Below the pieces are notes generated by a model. It did no database searches, was not told where the DNA came from, and was given only the letters and a program-made list of their open reading frames with translations. From Nitrospiria bacterium (lineage in GTDB: Bacteria > Nitrospirota > Nitrospiria > JACQBZ01), in assembly GCA_035498035.1 (NCBI GenBank), contig DATKAN010000010.1:1-64000 (forward strand): a stretch of 64,000 nt of DNA, given 5' to 3'. Of this stretch, positions 3,852 through 29,430 are shown in pieces. Within the stretch, counting starts at the first letter, position 1. Every line of letters starts with the position of its first letter. The position numbers and the translations under genes were made by a program.

Positions 3852-5462
3852 TTGACAGAAGGTCGATATAGAAATGGGTTGCTGTTGCTTCTGATAACTT
3901 TATTGACGTTGGGGATCGGTTATGCGGGGTGCGCAACCAAGAAACATTCCACCGTTATTGAGATTCGCTACCTTGTTGTTGTAGACCCTGCCCTCCCTTT
4001 TGTCGAAGACTACCAGATTAATAATTGGCTGGAGAAGGTCGAGGAAATATTCAAAGAGGCTGATGATATATCAATCCATTTCGTCCCCGCAGGAAAAGTT
4101 CACTTAGAGACCTTTTTAAGGGGTGAACAATGGGGACAAAGAGATTGGTTCCAGTCACAGAAGTTCAATGCACAGATCGATTCTCTCATCGAATCACGGC
4201 TGAGACAATATGACTTAAACTATATAAAGGATTATTTTGAGGACATCAAAAGAAAAGGACGCCTGAGCCAAAGTTTTTTTCTGAAAGATGTTCAAAATGC
4301 TCAAAAGCTGGATATCGATTTTTTTATAATGGAGATCAAAAAATATTTAACGGCTAATATTGAAGCATTTAGGGAAAAGGTAAGAATTCATGAGGATCAA
4401 AGCAGTGATCATATAAAATTCTCCCTCATGGCCGGTTGGCAAAATGCGCTGCGAGACTTGAAAGGCGCCGACATGATCCTGACCAACGAGATCGGGGCCG
4501 ATATCTATACTTTGGGGGATGTGTTTAATGAGAACAGTTTTCGAGTTAGCTTTACTCCGGGGTTGGCGGATTTTGAGACGTCTAGAATACTTGTAAGTGC
4601 ATTCCCTTGGCTTTATGCGCGGCCGCAGGATTCGGTCAAAGACTATACCCCGGCCAAGGATTATTTCACTTCCGCCGTGATTAGTCATGAAATTGCACAT
4701 GCCATCTTTCACCTTCAACACGATTTCACAAGGGGTGACTTCATTATGAGTGCCTCAGAAAATACACAAAGTAACTGGTTCAACAGAAAGCCTCGGTTTT
4801 CCGAAGAGAGTAAAAACGAGCTTCATGCCTGGGTCCTTGTTAAAGAAGCGCGCCAATTGGAACACGAGCGACGGCACCAGGAAGCCATCACCCGACTGCA
4901 GGGCGCGATACAAGTAAAAAAGGATTATCTACCCGCCTATCAGATGCTTGCTGGAATTTACGACCAGGACGGCCAAAAAGAATCGGCCGCACGGATAAGA
5001 CAGGCGAGCAAAGAGATTGATGACCGCGCCCATTGGCTTGAGAATTATTCCCGAGTTGCTTTTGCAAGTTATGCGAAGGGCAAAGAATTAGAATTGCTCG
5101 GCCGATCCGACGAGGCTATTGAAGAGTACAAAAAAGTTGTATATGGTGAGAATACAAATAATGCGTTGAATTACGATTTGCTCAATGACCTTATTATAGA
5201 AGCATACAGGAATATGGGCATACTCTATACAAACGAAATGAAACACGATGAGGGCATAAAAGTTTTAAACAAGCTATTGCAGATTCAGCCAAAAGACCCC
5301 AAAGCGCTTTACTTATTGGGAAGGAATTACTATTTTAAGAACGACAAACCGAATGCTGTATGGGCTTTGAAAAGTTTCTTGGCCTTAGAACAAGAAGGCC
5401 TGGATGCAGAGTCAGCGAGATCTCTTTTGAACGAACTCTCACAAGATAACGACGTAAAGTGA
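3852..5462 (+). CDS. lipoprotein with HExxH metalloprotease-like motif and TPR repeats
   Basis: A 536-residue predicted lipoprotein: hydrophobic N-terminus with lipobox YAGC (Cys near residue 27), a charged region to about 250, SHEIAHAIFHLQH near 280 (zinc-binding HExxH), IMSAS about 20 residues later that may act as a Met-turn, then TPR-like helical repeats from about 330 to the end. The third ligand of the metzincin pattern HExxHxxGxxH is not in its usual place, so the family is uncertain. TTG 3852 has AGAAGG at 3835-3840; a second TTG at 3879 is possible. Codon use is clearly AT-richer than in neighbours, suggesting acquisition by transfer. No named function is supportable. Confidence 0.7.
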   Translation: MTEGRYRNGLLLLLITLLTLGIGYAGCATKKHSTVIEIRYLVVVDPALPFVEDYQINNWLEKVEEIFKEADDISIHFVPAGKVHLETFLRGEQWGQRDWFQSQKFNAQIDSLIESRLRQYDLNYIKDYFEDIKRKGRLSQSFFLKDVQNAQKLDIDFFIMEIKKYLTANIEAFREKVRIHEDQSSDHIKFSLMAGWQNALRDLKGADMILTNEIGADIYTLGDVFNENSFRVSFTPGLADFETSRILVSAFPWLYARPQDSVKDYTPAKDYFTSAVISHEIAHAIFHLQHDFTRGDFIMSASENTQSNWFNRKPRFSEESKNELHAWVLVKEARQLEHERRHQEAITRLQGAIQVKKDYLPAYQMLAGIYDQDGQKESAARIRQASKEIDDRAHWLENYSRVAFASYAKGKELELLGRSDEAIEEYKKVVYGENTNNALNYDLLNDLIIEAYRNMGILYTNEMKHDEGIKVLNKLLQIQPKDPKALYLLGRNYYFKNDKPNAVWALKSFLALEQEGLDAESARSLLNELSQDNDVK

Positions 5463-26683: not shown

Positions 26684-26720
26684 CCGCCCTGAGCGCTCAG
26701 GGCGGAAGGCCCGTTTTGTT
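26684..26720 (+). terminator. palindromic hairpin terminator between convergent genes
   Basis: CCGCCCTGAGC followed by its complement GCTCAGGGCGG (26684-26705) form a perfect 11-bp stem, followed by CCCGTTTTGTTT. It serves the TPR gene; the stop codon of the convergent GGDEF/HD gene (26697) lies within it. Confidence 0.6.
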
Positions 26721-28160
26721 TAAAACCTGCACGAAGGATTGCACCAACTGCGGATCGAACTGTTTTCCGGCGCATTGATGCAGTTCCTCGATGGCCTCAT
26801 CATCGCTCAGCCGTCTGCGATACGGCCGTGTCGAAATCATGGCCTGATAGGCCTCGGCGATGGCCAGAACCCGGGCCAAAAAGGGGATGTCCTCCCCGTG
26901 CAGACCTTTTGGATAGCCGTTCCCATCCCAACGCTCGTGATGGTAAAGGATGGCGGGCAGCACACCGTCCAACCGGGGGGCGTCTTTGAGCAACAACTCG
27001 GCAAGGGTCGGATGCGCCTGGATGATCTTCCGTTCTTCCAAGGTCAAGGGTCCCGGCTTGTTCAAAACATTCTCGGGCGCATTCATCAGCCCGATGTTGT
27101 GGAGCAAACTTGCGATCCGAAGGCTCTCCACCTCCGCCGGGTCGAGTTTCAAGAACTTGGCAAAACTCATGGCCAAACGAACCACCTGGTCGGTGTGGCC
27201 GAACGTAAAGGGCGTTTTGGCATCGATGGCCAATCCGATATTCCGCATCACGCTGAGTTTCGAATCCCGAAGAACGACCTCCAGGCTGCCCTGATCTTCC
27301 GCAAAGTGGGCCTTTAACATTTCCCCGTGAAGACCCACCCGATTCCGGCCGTTCTGTTTGGCAAAATAAAGGGCCTTCTCCGCCATTTCAATCAAGCCGT
27401 CCTTGTCCCGGGCGTCGATGGGAAGATTCGCAACCCCGACGCTGATCGAAATGAAGGCCCGATGACCGCCGGGCAGGTTGAAGAGATGATAGAGAACGCA
27501 GTTGCGTAGACGTTCCGCAACGACCCGGGCTCCCTCCAAGGTTGTTTCCGGAAGAAGGACCGAAAATTCCTCGCCCCCAAAGCGGGCGAGAAGATCGTTG
27601 GTCCGAAGGCCTTGTTTGATGAGCTCACTCAATTCCCGTAAAATGGCATCGCCGACCGGATGACCGTAGGTGTCATTCAGGGTTTTAAAATGATCCAGGT
27701 CGATCATGAGCAGCGAAAGTGGCCGGTTATACCTTCCGGAACGGGCGACTTCCTCCTCCAGCTGTCTCTGGAAGGCCCGGTGGTTATCGATCCCCGTGAC
27801 GGCATCCTTCACCGCGGCCGACTGGGCCGTCTCTATGACCTGGGCCTGCAGCGAGAGGAGTTTCTTGGCCGTCAGACCGAAGGTCCCGCTGATCAACCAT
27901 ACGATGGCGATCAACGGAGTGAGGGTCAATATTTCCCGGCCGACTGCCGCAACCAGATATCCCGGTGTTCCATGGAAAACCAGACCGGCCAAATTCGATA
28001 TCGAACCCAAGGCACCGGCGAGGATGAAAACCAGCGCGCCGAGACGCTCAAAATCGAGCCGTGCTTCACGTTTCAGACAGTACCCGAAGTAAAAAAGGAC
28101 ACCGCCCGACAGCGCGAGCACCCCTTGTTCGATCCAGCGAAGTCCATTCAACATCGTCAT
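26697..28160 (-). CDS. membrane GGDEF protein with degenerate HD-GYP domain
   Basis: A 487-residue protein: three or four N-terminal transmembrane helices (to about residue 115), a GGDEF domain with intact RFGGEEFSVL, DLDHFKTLNDTYGH and an I-site RTND, then an HD-GYP domain. In the HD-GYP part HHERWDGNGYPKGL is intact, but the HD dyad reads LLHNIGL (Asp to Asn, and K to L) and the late Asp ligand is Gln (AEAYQAM), so phosphodiesterase activity is doubtful. The ATG at 28160 overlaps the stop of the small membrane protein upstream (ATGA). Last gene of the MerR-GGDEF operon. Confidence 0.9.
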   Translation of the reverse strand: MTMLNGLRWIEQGVLALSGGVLFYFGYCLKREARLDFERLGALVFILAGALGSISNLAGLVFHGTPGYLVAAVGREILTLTPLIAIVWLISGTFGLTAKKLLSLQAQVIETAQSAAVKDAVTGIDNHRAFQRQLEEEVARSGRYNRPLSLLMIDLDHFKTLNDTYGHPVGDAILRELSELIKQGLRTNDLLARFGGEEFSVLLPETTLEGARVVAERLRNCVLYHLFNLPGGHRAFISISVGVANLPIDARDKDGLIEMAEKALYFAKQNGRNRVGLHGEMLKAHFAEDQGSLEVVLRDSKLSVMRNIGLAIDAKTPFTFGHTDQVVRLAMSFAKFLKLDPAEVESLRIASLLHNIGLMNAPENVLNKPGPLTLEERKIIQAHPTLAELLLKDAPRLDGVLPAILYHHERWDGNGYPKGLHGEDIPFLARVLAIAEAYQAMISTRPYRRRLSDDEAIEELHQCAGKQFDPQLVQSFVQVLNKTGLPP

Positions 28161-28459
28161 CCCGTTTTCCGCGATTCGGCTTTGTGGCGGATATCGCCAT
28201 GGAGTTTCCATGCCATCCATGGAATGAGGATTCCCGCGCCTATCCCCAGCAACGCGCAAACCTCCTGGATCCAGACGGAATCCATAATTTGGAGAACGGC
28301 CCGGACGGCCAATATCAGGCACAGGCCGATCAGCATCATCCAGACCCGCTTGTCACCGACACTGTCCTGTCCAACCGGAAGAATCACAAGGGCCGCCGTC
28401 AACGCGGCGATCGTCAACGCGGTCGCGTTCATCACACCGATGATGTTTTCCAGATCCAT
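28157..28459 (-). CDS. small three-helix membrane protein
   Basis: A 100-residue protein with three hydrophobic segments (about 8-28, 40-60, 66-88) and a basic C-terminus. No family recognised. It is sandwiched between the MerR-GGDEF gene and the GGDEF/HD gene, with 9-base and ATGA-overlap junctions, so it is probably an accessory or sensory membrane component of that c-di-GMP module. Confidence 0.7.
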   Translation of the reverse strand: MDLENIIGVMNATALTIAALTAALVILPVGQDSVGDKRVWMMLIGLCLILAVRAVLQIMDSVWIQEVCALLGIGAGILIPWMAWKLHGDIRHKAESRKTG

Positions 28460-28468
28460 CGATCCCCC

Positions 28469-29212
28469 TCAAACCACGGTGCCCGATGCGTTTCGCGCCC
28501 GCTCCACGAACCCCGTTCCCTCTTCCTCCGACGGTTCCATCGTCGCGAATCCCACGTTAATTCGAATCGAGTAACGGACGTTCCCGATGGTCCATTCCCG
28601 CTCGGGAAACAGAATCGGGATGCGTTGGGCCACAAGCTTCGCACCGTCCTCCGTCGTCTGGCACAACAGCCATAAGAATTCCTGGGAGTCGATCTGAGCT
28701 ATCGTATCGTAGGCGCGTTTGTACGAATTCAACGTATTTAAGATCTTTCGGGTGATTTCACCCACCCCGTCCGCATTGTCGAAAGGAGAAATCTCAACTT
28801 TGACGGCGAGACAGGTCAGCGGATATTGAAAACGACGCGACCGGACCCGTTCCTCCTCAACCCGTTTCTGAAAATCCTCGATCCCTTTCAGGATCTCCGT
28901 GGCCGGATCGCGCAGAGACGAGGACGGTCGGCTGATCAAATTCACCAAGGTGCGGGCCGAAACATCCCCTCCGCCCGCCAAGGCCGCTTTAATCTTTTCA
29001 GCGGCCTTGCTCACAAGGTACCCTTGCTCGGTGAGTTTTTGAACGGCCTGCAACAATTCAAGATCCCGGTCCGTATAGCGGTAGAAAATTCTTGTGCCGT
29101 GCAGTTCCTGTCCGGGCCGCACAATCCCGATCAATTTCCAATATCCCAGTTGTCTGGCCGAGATTTTGGCCTGTCTGCAGATTTCTTTAGGGCTGTATGT
29201 CTTTTTACCCAT
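28469..29212 (-). CDS. MerR-type regulator fused to a degenerate GGDEF domain
   Basis: A 247-residue protein. Residues 1-75 are a MerR winged helix (YSPKEICRQAKISARQLGYWKLIGIVRPG, FYRYTDRDLELLQAVQKLTEQGYLVSKAAEKI). From about 115 to 235 the order matches a GGDEF domain (DPATEILKGIEDFQKRVEEERVRSRRF...), but the signature is DSQEF in place of GGDEF. Five residues before it stands RAYD, the RxxD of the inhibitory c-di-GMP-binding I-site. The likely role is a c-di-GMP-responsive transcription factor controlling its own operon. Start ATG 29212 with GGTGGAAG upstream. Confidence 0.78.
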   Translation of the reverse strand: MGKKTYSPKEICRQAKISARQLGYWKLIGIVRPGQELHGTRIFYRYTDRDLELLQAVQKLTEQGYLVSKAAEKIKAALAGGGDVSARTLVNLISRPSSSLRDPATEILKGIEDFQKRVEEERVRSRRFQYPLTCLAVKVEISPFDNADGVGEITRKILNTLNSYKRAYDTIAQIDSQEFLWLLCQTTEDGAKLVAQRIPILFPEREWTIGNVRYSIRINVGFATMEPSEEEGTGFVERARNASGTVV

Positions 29213-29430
29213 GTTCTTCCACCGGCTATGAAAAATTGTCCATTCCTAATACATACATGAGCAATAAACGTACCAACCGACAGTAAAATAAGGGCTATTT
29301 CTTGTACATGGTTGTTCAATGTAATAAATCAACGGGTTATATTAGTGCCCTTTTTTGGGTTAAAAGAGGAACATTTGAATTAGGAAACTTCTTACCTACT
29401 ACTTTGTCGAAATTTGGCAGGATTAAAGGA

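Follow-up and report, generated by a model that had tools for sequence, protein, structure and literature searches.

A MerR regulator fused to a degenerate GGDEF domain with a complete, conserved I-site: a candidate c-di-GMP-responsive transcription factor in groundwater Nitrospirota

Here, we report a protein of 247 amino acids in which a MerR DNA-binding head is joined to a GGDEF-type domain, encoded in the window (the whole 64,000-nucleotide stretch analysed, from contig DATKAN010000010.1 of a Nitrospiria bacterium). Its C-terminal half has the GGDEF fold, with a complete and conserved inhibitory site (I-site) and a dead active site (A-site), and its gene opens an operon behind a conserved promoter and dyad; we regard these parts as established. 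On this basis, we propose that the fusion is probably an autoregulated c-di-GMP-sensing transcription factor, in which a domain pair clamped by c-di-GMP at the complete I-site would set the MerR heads and feed back on its own operon. A c-di-GMP-responsive transcription factor with feedback was what the first-pass annotation had put forward, and as a candidate it is supported by the conserved I-site, the GGDEF fold, and the conserved operon.

Domain make-up and distribution of the fusion

28469..29212, minus strand: MerR–pseudo-GGDEF fusion gene, 247 aa, ATG start (ORF reading, Pfam, AlphaFold)
28988..29197, minus strand: MerR winged helix-turn-helix, residues 6–75 (Pfam PF13411 MerR_1, E = 1e-10)
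28484..28900, minus strand: degenerate GGDEF domain plus the stalk helix at its N-terminus, residues 105–243 (Pfam, profile search, AlphaFold/Foldseek)

The N-terminal head is matched by MerR_1 (PF13411) in all 11 fusion orthologues, and in the AlphaFold2 model of the fusion it folds as helices 8–15 and 19–27, two strands, and helices 48–62 and 67–79. Residues 155–242 match Pfam GGDEF at E = 7.9e-5 and 22.9 bits when the protein is scored alone, just short of the Pfam cut-off of 23.8 bits, and the score is 23.8 bits when the protein is scanned with its genomic neighbours in the genome scan. A profile built from the 11 orthologues found GGDEF structures in the PDB (SiaD, 7e6g, E = 2.3e-9; DgcR, 8e-7; WspR, 3e-5), and a GGDEF model built from the host genome's own cyclases matched 11/11 of the orthologue C-terminal domains. 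Two AlphaFold models were made; the AlphaFold2 model of the fusion has a pLDDT of 81, its best PDB folds by Foldseek are WspR, SiaD, DosC, and PleD, and the MerR-family proteins BrlR and BmrR are among the lower-ranked matches. In the AlphaFold2 monomer model, a helix (residues 103–128) precedes the GGDEF core, and the linker before it (92–102) is of low confidence. A GyrI-like C-terminal domain of the BrlR type was not found in the fusion, the C-terminal fold being that of GGDEF, and the GGDEF_2 family (the GGDEF-like domain of other regulators) was set aside, with weak matches in only two of the 11 orthologues (0.07). Judged from the profile searches and the predicted structures, the MerR–GGDEF fusion and the GGDEF fold of its C-terminal half are real. 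The earlier reading of a MerR regulator fused to a GGDEF-type domain is thereby borne out by Pfam, profile searches, and two AlphaFold models, and a non-GGDEF fold of the C-terminal half, which would have counted against it, was looked for by HMM and structure and not seen.

The fusion occurs in 6/7 genomes of family f1 (groundwater Nitrospirota; 55–100% identity), the sole family of its order in our genome set, G011 being the member that lacks it. A search of all 270 genomes of the class added only five carriers, each of genus g16 in family f9 and ~30% identical over full length; the remaining matches were ordinary GGDEF proteins or MerR proteins standing alone. Among named records, groundwater Nitrospirae MAGs come closest, no plasmid homologues were found, and a short-peptide scan of GTDB species genomes returned Nitrospirae matches only; apart from that one scan, the search effectively covered Nitrospirota genomes and plasmids. 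The architecture, which the first-pass annotation did not know to be described, has further carriers in the class, the five g16 genomes, but these have lost the RxxD.

Stand-alone MerR relatives of the fusion's helix-turn-helix (~50% identity) are commoner across the class than the fusion itself. Genes for such proteins, of ~90–120 aa, neighbour cheA, cheW, and chemoreceptor genes at L044 (G000:C45, 5396–6673), L045, L046, L047, and L051; in two genomes, G000 and G016, a GGDEF gene adjoins the stand-alone MerR. Through these proteins, MerR regulation may have a link to chemosensory clusters that is conserved and has so far gone undescribed.

The I-site and the A-site

28706..28717, minus strand: RAYD, primary I-site RxxD (R166, D169), residues 166–169 (invariant in 6/6 f1 orthologues)
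28622..28624, minus strand: R197, at the position of SgmT R794, 31 residues after R166 (invariant in 6/6; spacing identical to SgmT)
28832..28834, minus strand: R127, at the position of WspR R198, the I-site Arg from a neighbouring domain (invariant in 6/6; profile alignment, residue count)
28676..28690, minus strand: DSQEF, degenerate GGDEF motif, residues 175–179 (differs among orthologues)

RAYD and DSQEF are separated by TIAQI (residues 170–174), exactly five residues, so that the count confirms what had been read off initially, namely DSQEF at the GGDEF position with RAYD five residues before it. R166 and D169 align with R242 and D245 of WspR and with R763 and D766 of SgmT. In WspR, the R198/R242 pair bridges two GGDEF domains, R198 being given to the c-di-GMP site by the neighbouring domain (PMC2270323); SgmT, a receptor with a degenerate GGDEF domain, needs its I-site to bind c-di-GMP, and its R794, 31 residues after R763, has been described as part of the secondary site (PMC3509222). 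R127, R166, A167, Y168, D169, and R197 are invariant in the six f1 orthologues, with codons that vary synonymously.

The A-site presents another picture. At residues 175–179 the six f1 orthologues read DSQEF, DPQEF, NPQEV, GRQEF, GRQEF, and DRLEF, with positions 175, 176, 177, and 179 variable; the metal-binding catalytic Asp is replaced by Lys or Arg at residue 138, and the segment from the first strand to the next helix is shortened. Neither the GG(D/E)EF motif nor the metal-binding Asp of active diguanylate cyclases is present in the fusion or its f1 orthologues. By these residues the domain is catalytically dead with its I-site complete and conserved, and the initial view that cyclase activity is very unlikely gains from the drift of the motif and the loss of the Asp.

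RxxD is found in 15/21 examined GGDEF domains of the host genome, and for that reason we discarded it as weak evidence by itself; the weight of the I-site argument comes from its retention after catalysis was lost, in six related genomes, rather than from mere presence. Invariant positions make up 34/143 of the C-terminal part among the six f1 orthologues, and against this background the probability that all four given I-site positions are invariant is ~0.003, a rough guide only, as the calculation treats positions as exchangeable. In these alignments, the evidence beyond chance is that the four I-site residues are invariant in 6/6 while the A-site drifts.

The five g16 orthologues keep the fold and the helix-turn-helix, and all four I-site contacts are changed in them: position 127 holds Gln or neighbouring residues, 166 is mostly Lys, and both 169 and 197 are Glu. 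Since the four residues are whole in the f1 lineage and lost whole in the g16 lineage, they seem to act as one functional unit. The RxxD that the first-pass annotation had pointed to is therefore kept in 6/6 close orthologues as part of a site more complete than was noted, with R127 and R197 also kept, but it does not extend to the distant ones.

Operon and control region

28157..28459, minus strand: small membrane protein, 100 aa, ~3 TM helices, start 9 nt after the fusion stop (homologues in G020, G005, G016)
26697..28160, minus strand: membrane GGDEF (GGEEF, I-site RTND) and degenerate HD-GYP protein, 487 aa (Pfam GGDEF 6.5e-44, HD_5 8.7e-44)
29260..29276, minus strand: sigma54-type -24/-12 promoter TTGGTACGTTTATTGCT (11/12 consensus positions; 10/11 orthologues)
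29305..29323, minus strand: candidate operator dyad TACAT-N9-ATGTA (exact match once per genome; conserved alignment block)
29380..29401, minus strand: second, imperfect dyad of the TTAGGAA...TTTCCTAA type (full arms in other orthologues)

The fusion opens a translationally coupled operon, in which it is followed by the 3-TM protein and the GGDEF/HD protein, the stop of the former being joined to the start of the latter by an ATGA overlap. This three-gene set is conserved in four genomes (G000, G020, G005, and G016). The first-pass annotation had placed the fusion in an operon with a GGDEF enzyme, and a GGDEF protein with an active motif is indeed there in all four; however, the 3-TM gene intervenes and the partner also carries a degenerate HD-GYP domain. 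Nor is the enzyme a constant context, as G023 and G026 have no cyclase at the fusion locus and yet keep the fusion and all four I-site residues. A 394-aa ORF follows the fusion in G026; Pfam gave no match for it, and we did not count it as a partner.

Other observations concern the partner and its surroundings. In four orthologues, HN replaces HD in its HD-GYP domain and AE replaces the later AD, with the GYP stretch kept; by these substitutions it is probably catalytically impaired. In relatives (L034, L035, L037, and L038) a TonB-dependent receptor and a PF04392 (ABC_sub_bind) substrate-binding protein follow the fusion/cyclase genes, and both are missing from the fusion locus in the window's genome; this neighbourhood hints at the outer membrane or periplasm as a source of input for the cyclase.

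For the region 29213–29430, where the first-pass annotation had looked for DNA binding by the fusion, the best promoter is of the sigma54 type and not the classical MerR promoter: a convincing sigma70 promoter with the long spacer (19–20 bp) typical of MerR was not seen by eye. The sigma54-type element is present in 5/6 f1 orthologues, G023 being without it, and in 5/5 g16 orthologues with a different sequence (TGGCATTTCACTTGCAA type). At the score used, the motif has two matches in the 128 kb of strand of the window, TTGGTACGTTTATTGCT being the sole one at 11/12; in the host genome, which encodes RpoN, the motif class is ~five-fold above the reversed control (24 vs 5).

The dyad, TACATTGAACAA(N)CATGT(A), lies upstream of this promoter, ~65 bp ahead of the predicted start. 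The exact TACATNGAACANNCATGT occurs once per genome in 6/6 f1 carriers, in each case in front of the fusion gene, and is absent from G011, the f1 member without the fusion gene. This pattern suits the operator of a local self-regulating factor, which we infer the fusion to be, although the dyad could instead serve a sigma54 activator. No second exact site was found, so no regulon is proposed from the dyad motif. In G023 the operator site is extended to a 37-bp perfect palindrome with 16-bp arms (L037, ~4915–4951), and TGCTATAAT comes after it, where the sigma54-type promoter would otherwise stand. The second dyad, 29380–29401, is conserved just after the upstream GTPase gene, and is a candidate terminator, activator site, or operator.

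Proposed mechanism, alternatives and known systems

In our proposal, the retired GGDEF domain would bind c-di-GMP at the I-site through R166, D169, and R197 together with R127 from a second copy, and two GGDEF domains would be held together by an intercalated c-di-GMP dimer as in WspR and PleD. This pairing would determine how the MerR heads are spaced, arranged, or oligomerised, and the heads would bind the single dyad 29305–29323 above the sigma54-type promoter. The output would be control of its own operon, and a c-di-GMP feedback loop would arise in the four genomes where that operon includes the membrane diguanylate cyclase. By analogy with known receptors, the fusion probably works by c-di-GMP-bridged oligomerisation. 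Please note that ligand binding and dyad binding by the fusion are what we infer from sequence, and that the effect of high c-di-GMP may be either repression or activation.

A different role for the dead domain would be docking: its partner would be the GGDEF domain of the membrane cyclase from the same operon, and the cyclase would hold or release the regulator, the I-site serving this contact and not the sensing of free ligand. The translationally coupled operon in four genomes fits such a role, direct MerR–GGDEF contact is known for MlrA–DgcM of E. coli (PMC5052742), and the I-site of GcbC also mediates contact with LapD, as quoted in PMC12421958. However, a purely docking role is disfavoured by G023 and G026, where the I-site persists in the absence of a cyclase gene, and we consider it unlikely. 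The C-terminal domain might also be a mere fold-derived oligomerisation domain, with the RxxD an inherited remnant that has no ligand role. The f9 orthologues, which have lost every I-site residue but not the fold, and the commonness of RxxD in the host genome agree with this; indeed, that these orthologues persist without the site speaks against sensing, in that a fusion can apparently be useful without c-di-GMP, and with six orthologues, all of one family, the sample is small and the I-site could be inherited. Against the remnant stands the invariance in f1 of four dispersed I-site residues, while the A-site residues of the same ancestry have drifted, and we find it quite unlikely. That another nucleotide, cyclic or otherwise, for example cGAMP or ppGpp, is bound at a modified site and regulates the protein is very improbable: the fold is nucleotide-binding and the A-site remodelled, but at the I-site the residues are exactly those of c-di-GMP receptors, and with 25 GGDEF matches in the genome c-di-GMP is very likely made. 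Sensing of c-di-GMP at the I-site is the reading that we carry forward.

The fusion can be described, by analogy, as a receptor domain of the PopA/SgmT type in a PdeL-like layout, with BrlR and MlrA–DgcM as MerR precedents. PopA (Caulobacter) and SgmT (Myxococcus) likewise combine a dead A-site with an intact I-site, and SgmT, with the same geometry of RxxD and +31 Arg, has been shown to bind c-di-GMP (PMC3509222); unlike the fusion, they have no DNA-binding domain, SgmT being a histidine kinase and PopA a response regulator, and their output is localisation or proteolysis. PdeL (E. coli) has a LuxR-type helix-turn-helix and a c-di-GMP turnover domain in one chain; its binding site is an imperfect palindrome lying well upstream of the pdeL gene, and it is autoregulated under c-di-GMP control (PMC5052742), but the turnover domain is a still active EAL phosphodiesterase rather than a GGDEF and the head is not MerR. 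BrlR (Pseudomonas aeruginosa) is a MerR-family regulator controlled by c-di-GMP, and in its crystal the subunits share an intercalated c-di-GMP dimer (PMC6028453); its c-di-GMP sites, however, are in the DNA-binding domain, and its GyrI-like C-terminal domain binds pyocyanin. In the MlrA–DgcM–PdeR system of E. coli, a MerR-like factor and a GGDEF protein are functionally linked (PMC5052742), though as separate chains with an active cyclase as co-activator, whereas in the fusion a single chain holds both parts and the cyclase domain is dead. BldD (Streptomyces) resembles the proposed mechanism in that c-di-GMP brings DNA-binding subunits together (PMC4151990), but there a tetrameric c-di-GMP sits on an unrelated C-terminal domain.

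A 2025 table of c-di-GMP-binding transcription factors has REC, PilZ, GyrI-like, CRP, and other receptor modules, and no GGDEF I-site member appears in the part of that source available to us (PMC12564702); searches of the open-access literature, including broader ones, found no report of HTH–GGDEF or MerR–GGDEF fusions. With about equal weight for and against, the fusion would represent a new class of one-component transcription factor that reads c-di-GMP at the product-inhibition site of a cyclase now retired; domains paired by c-di-GMP would determine the state of the protein on DNA, under autoregulation at a sigma54 promoter, while a sister lineage kept the architecture and lost the sensor site. 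The f1 lineage with the site and the g16 lineage without it make the idea directly testable. If it is true, a cyclase's feedback-inhibition site has been turned into a gene switch by gaining a DNA-binding head and losing catalysis, and groundwater Nitrospirota, a group for which we found none in the literature, would have a transcriptional output of c-di-GMP.
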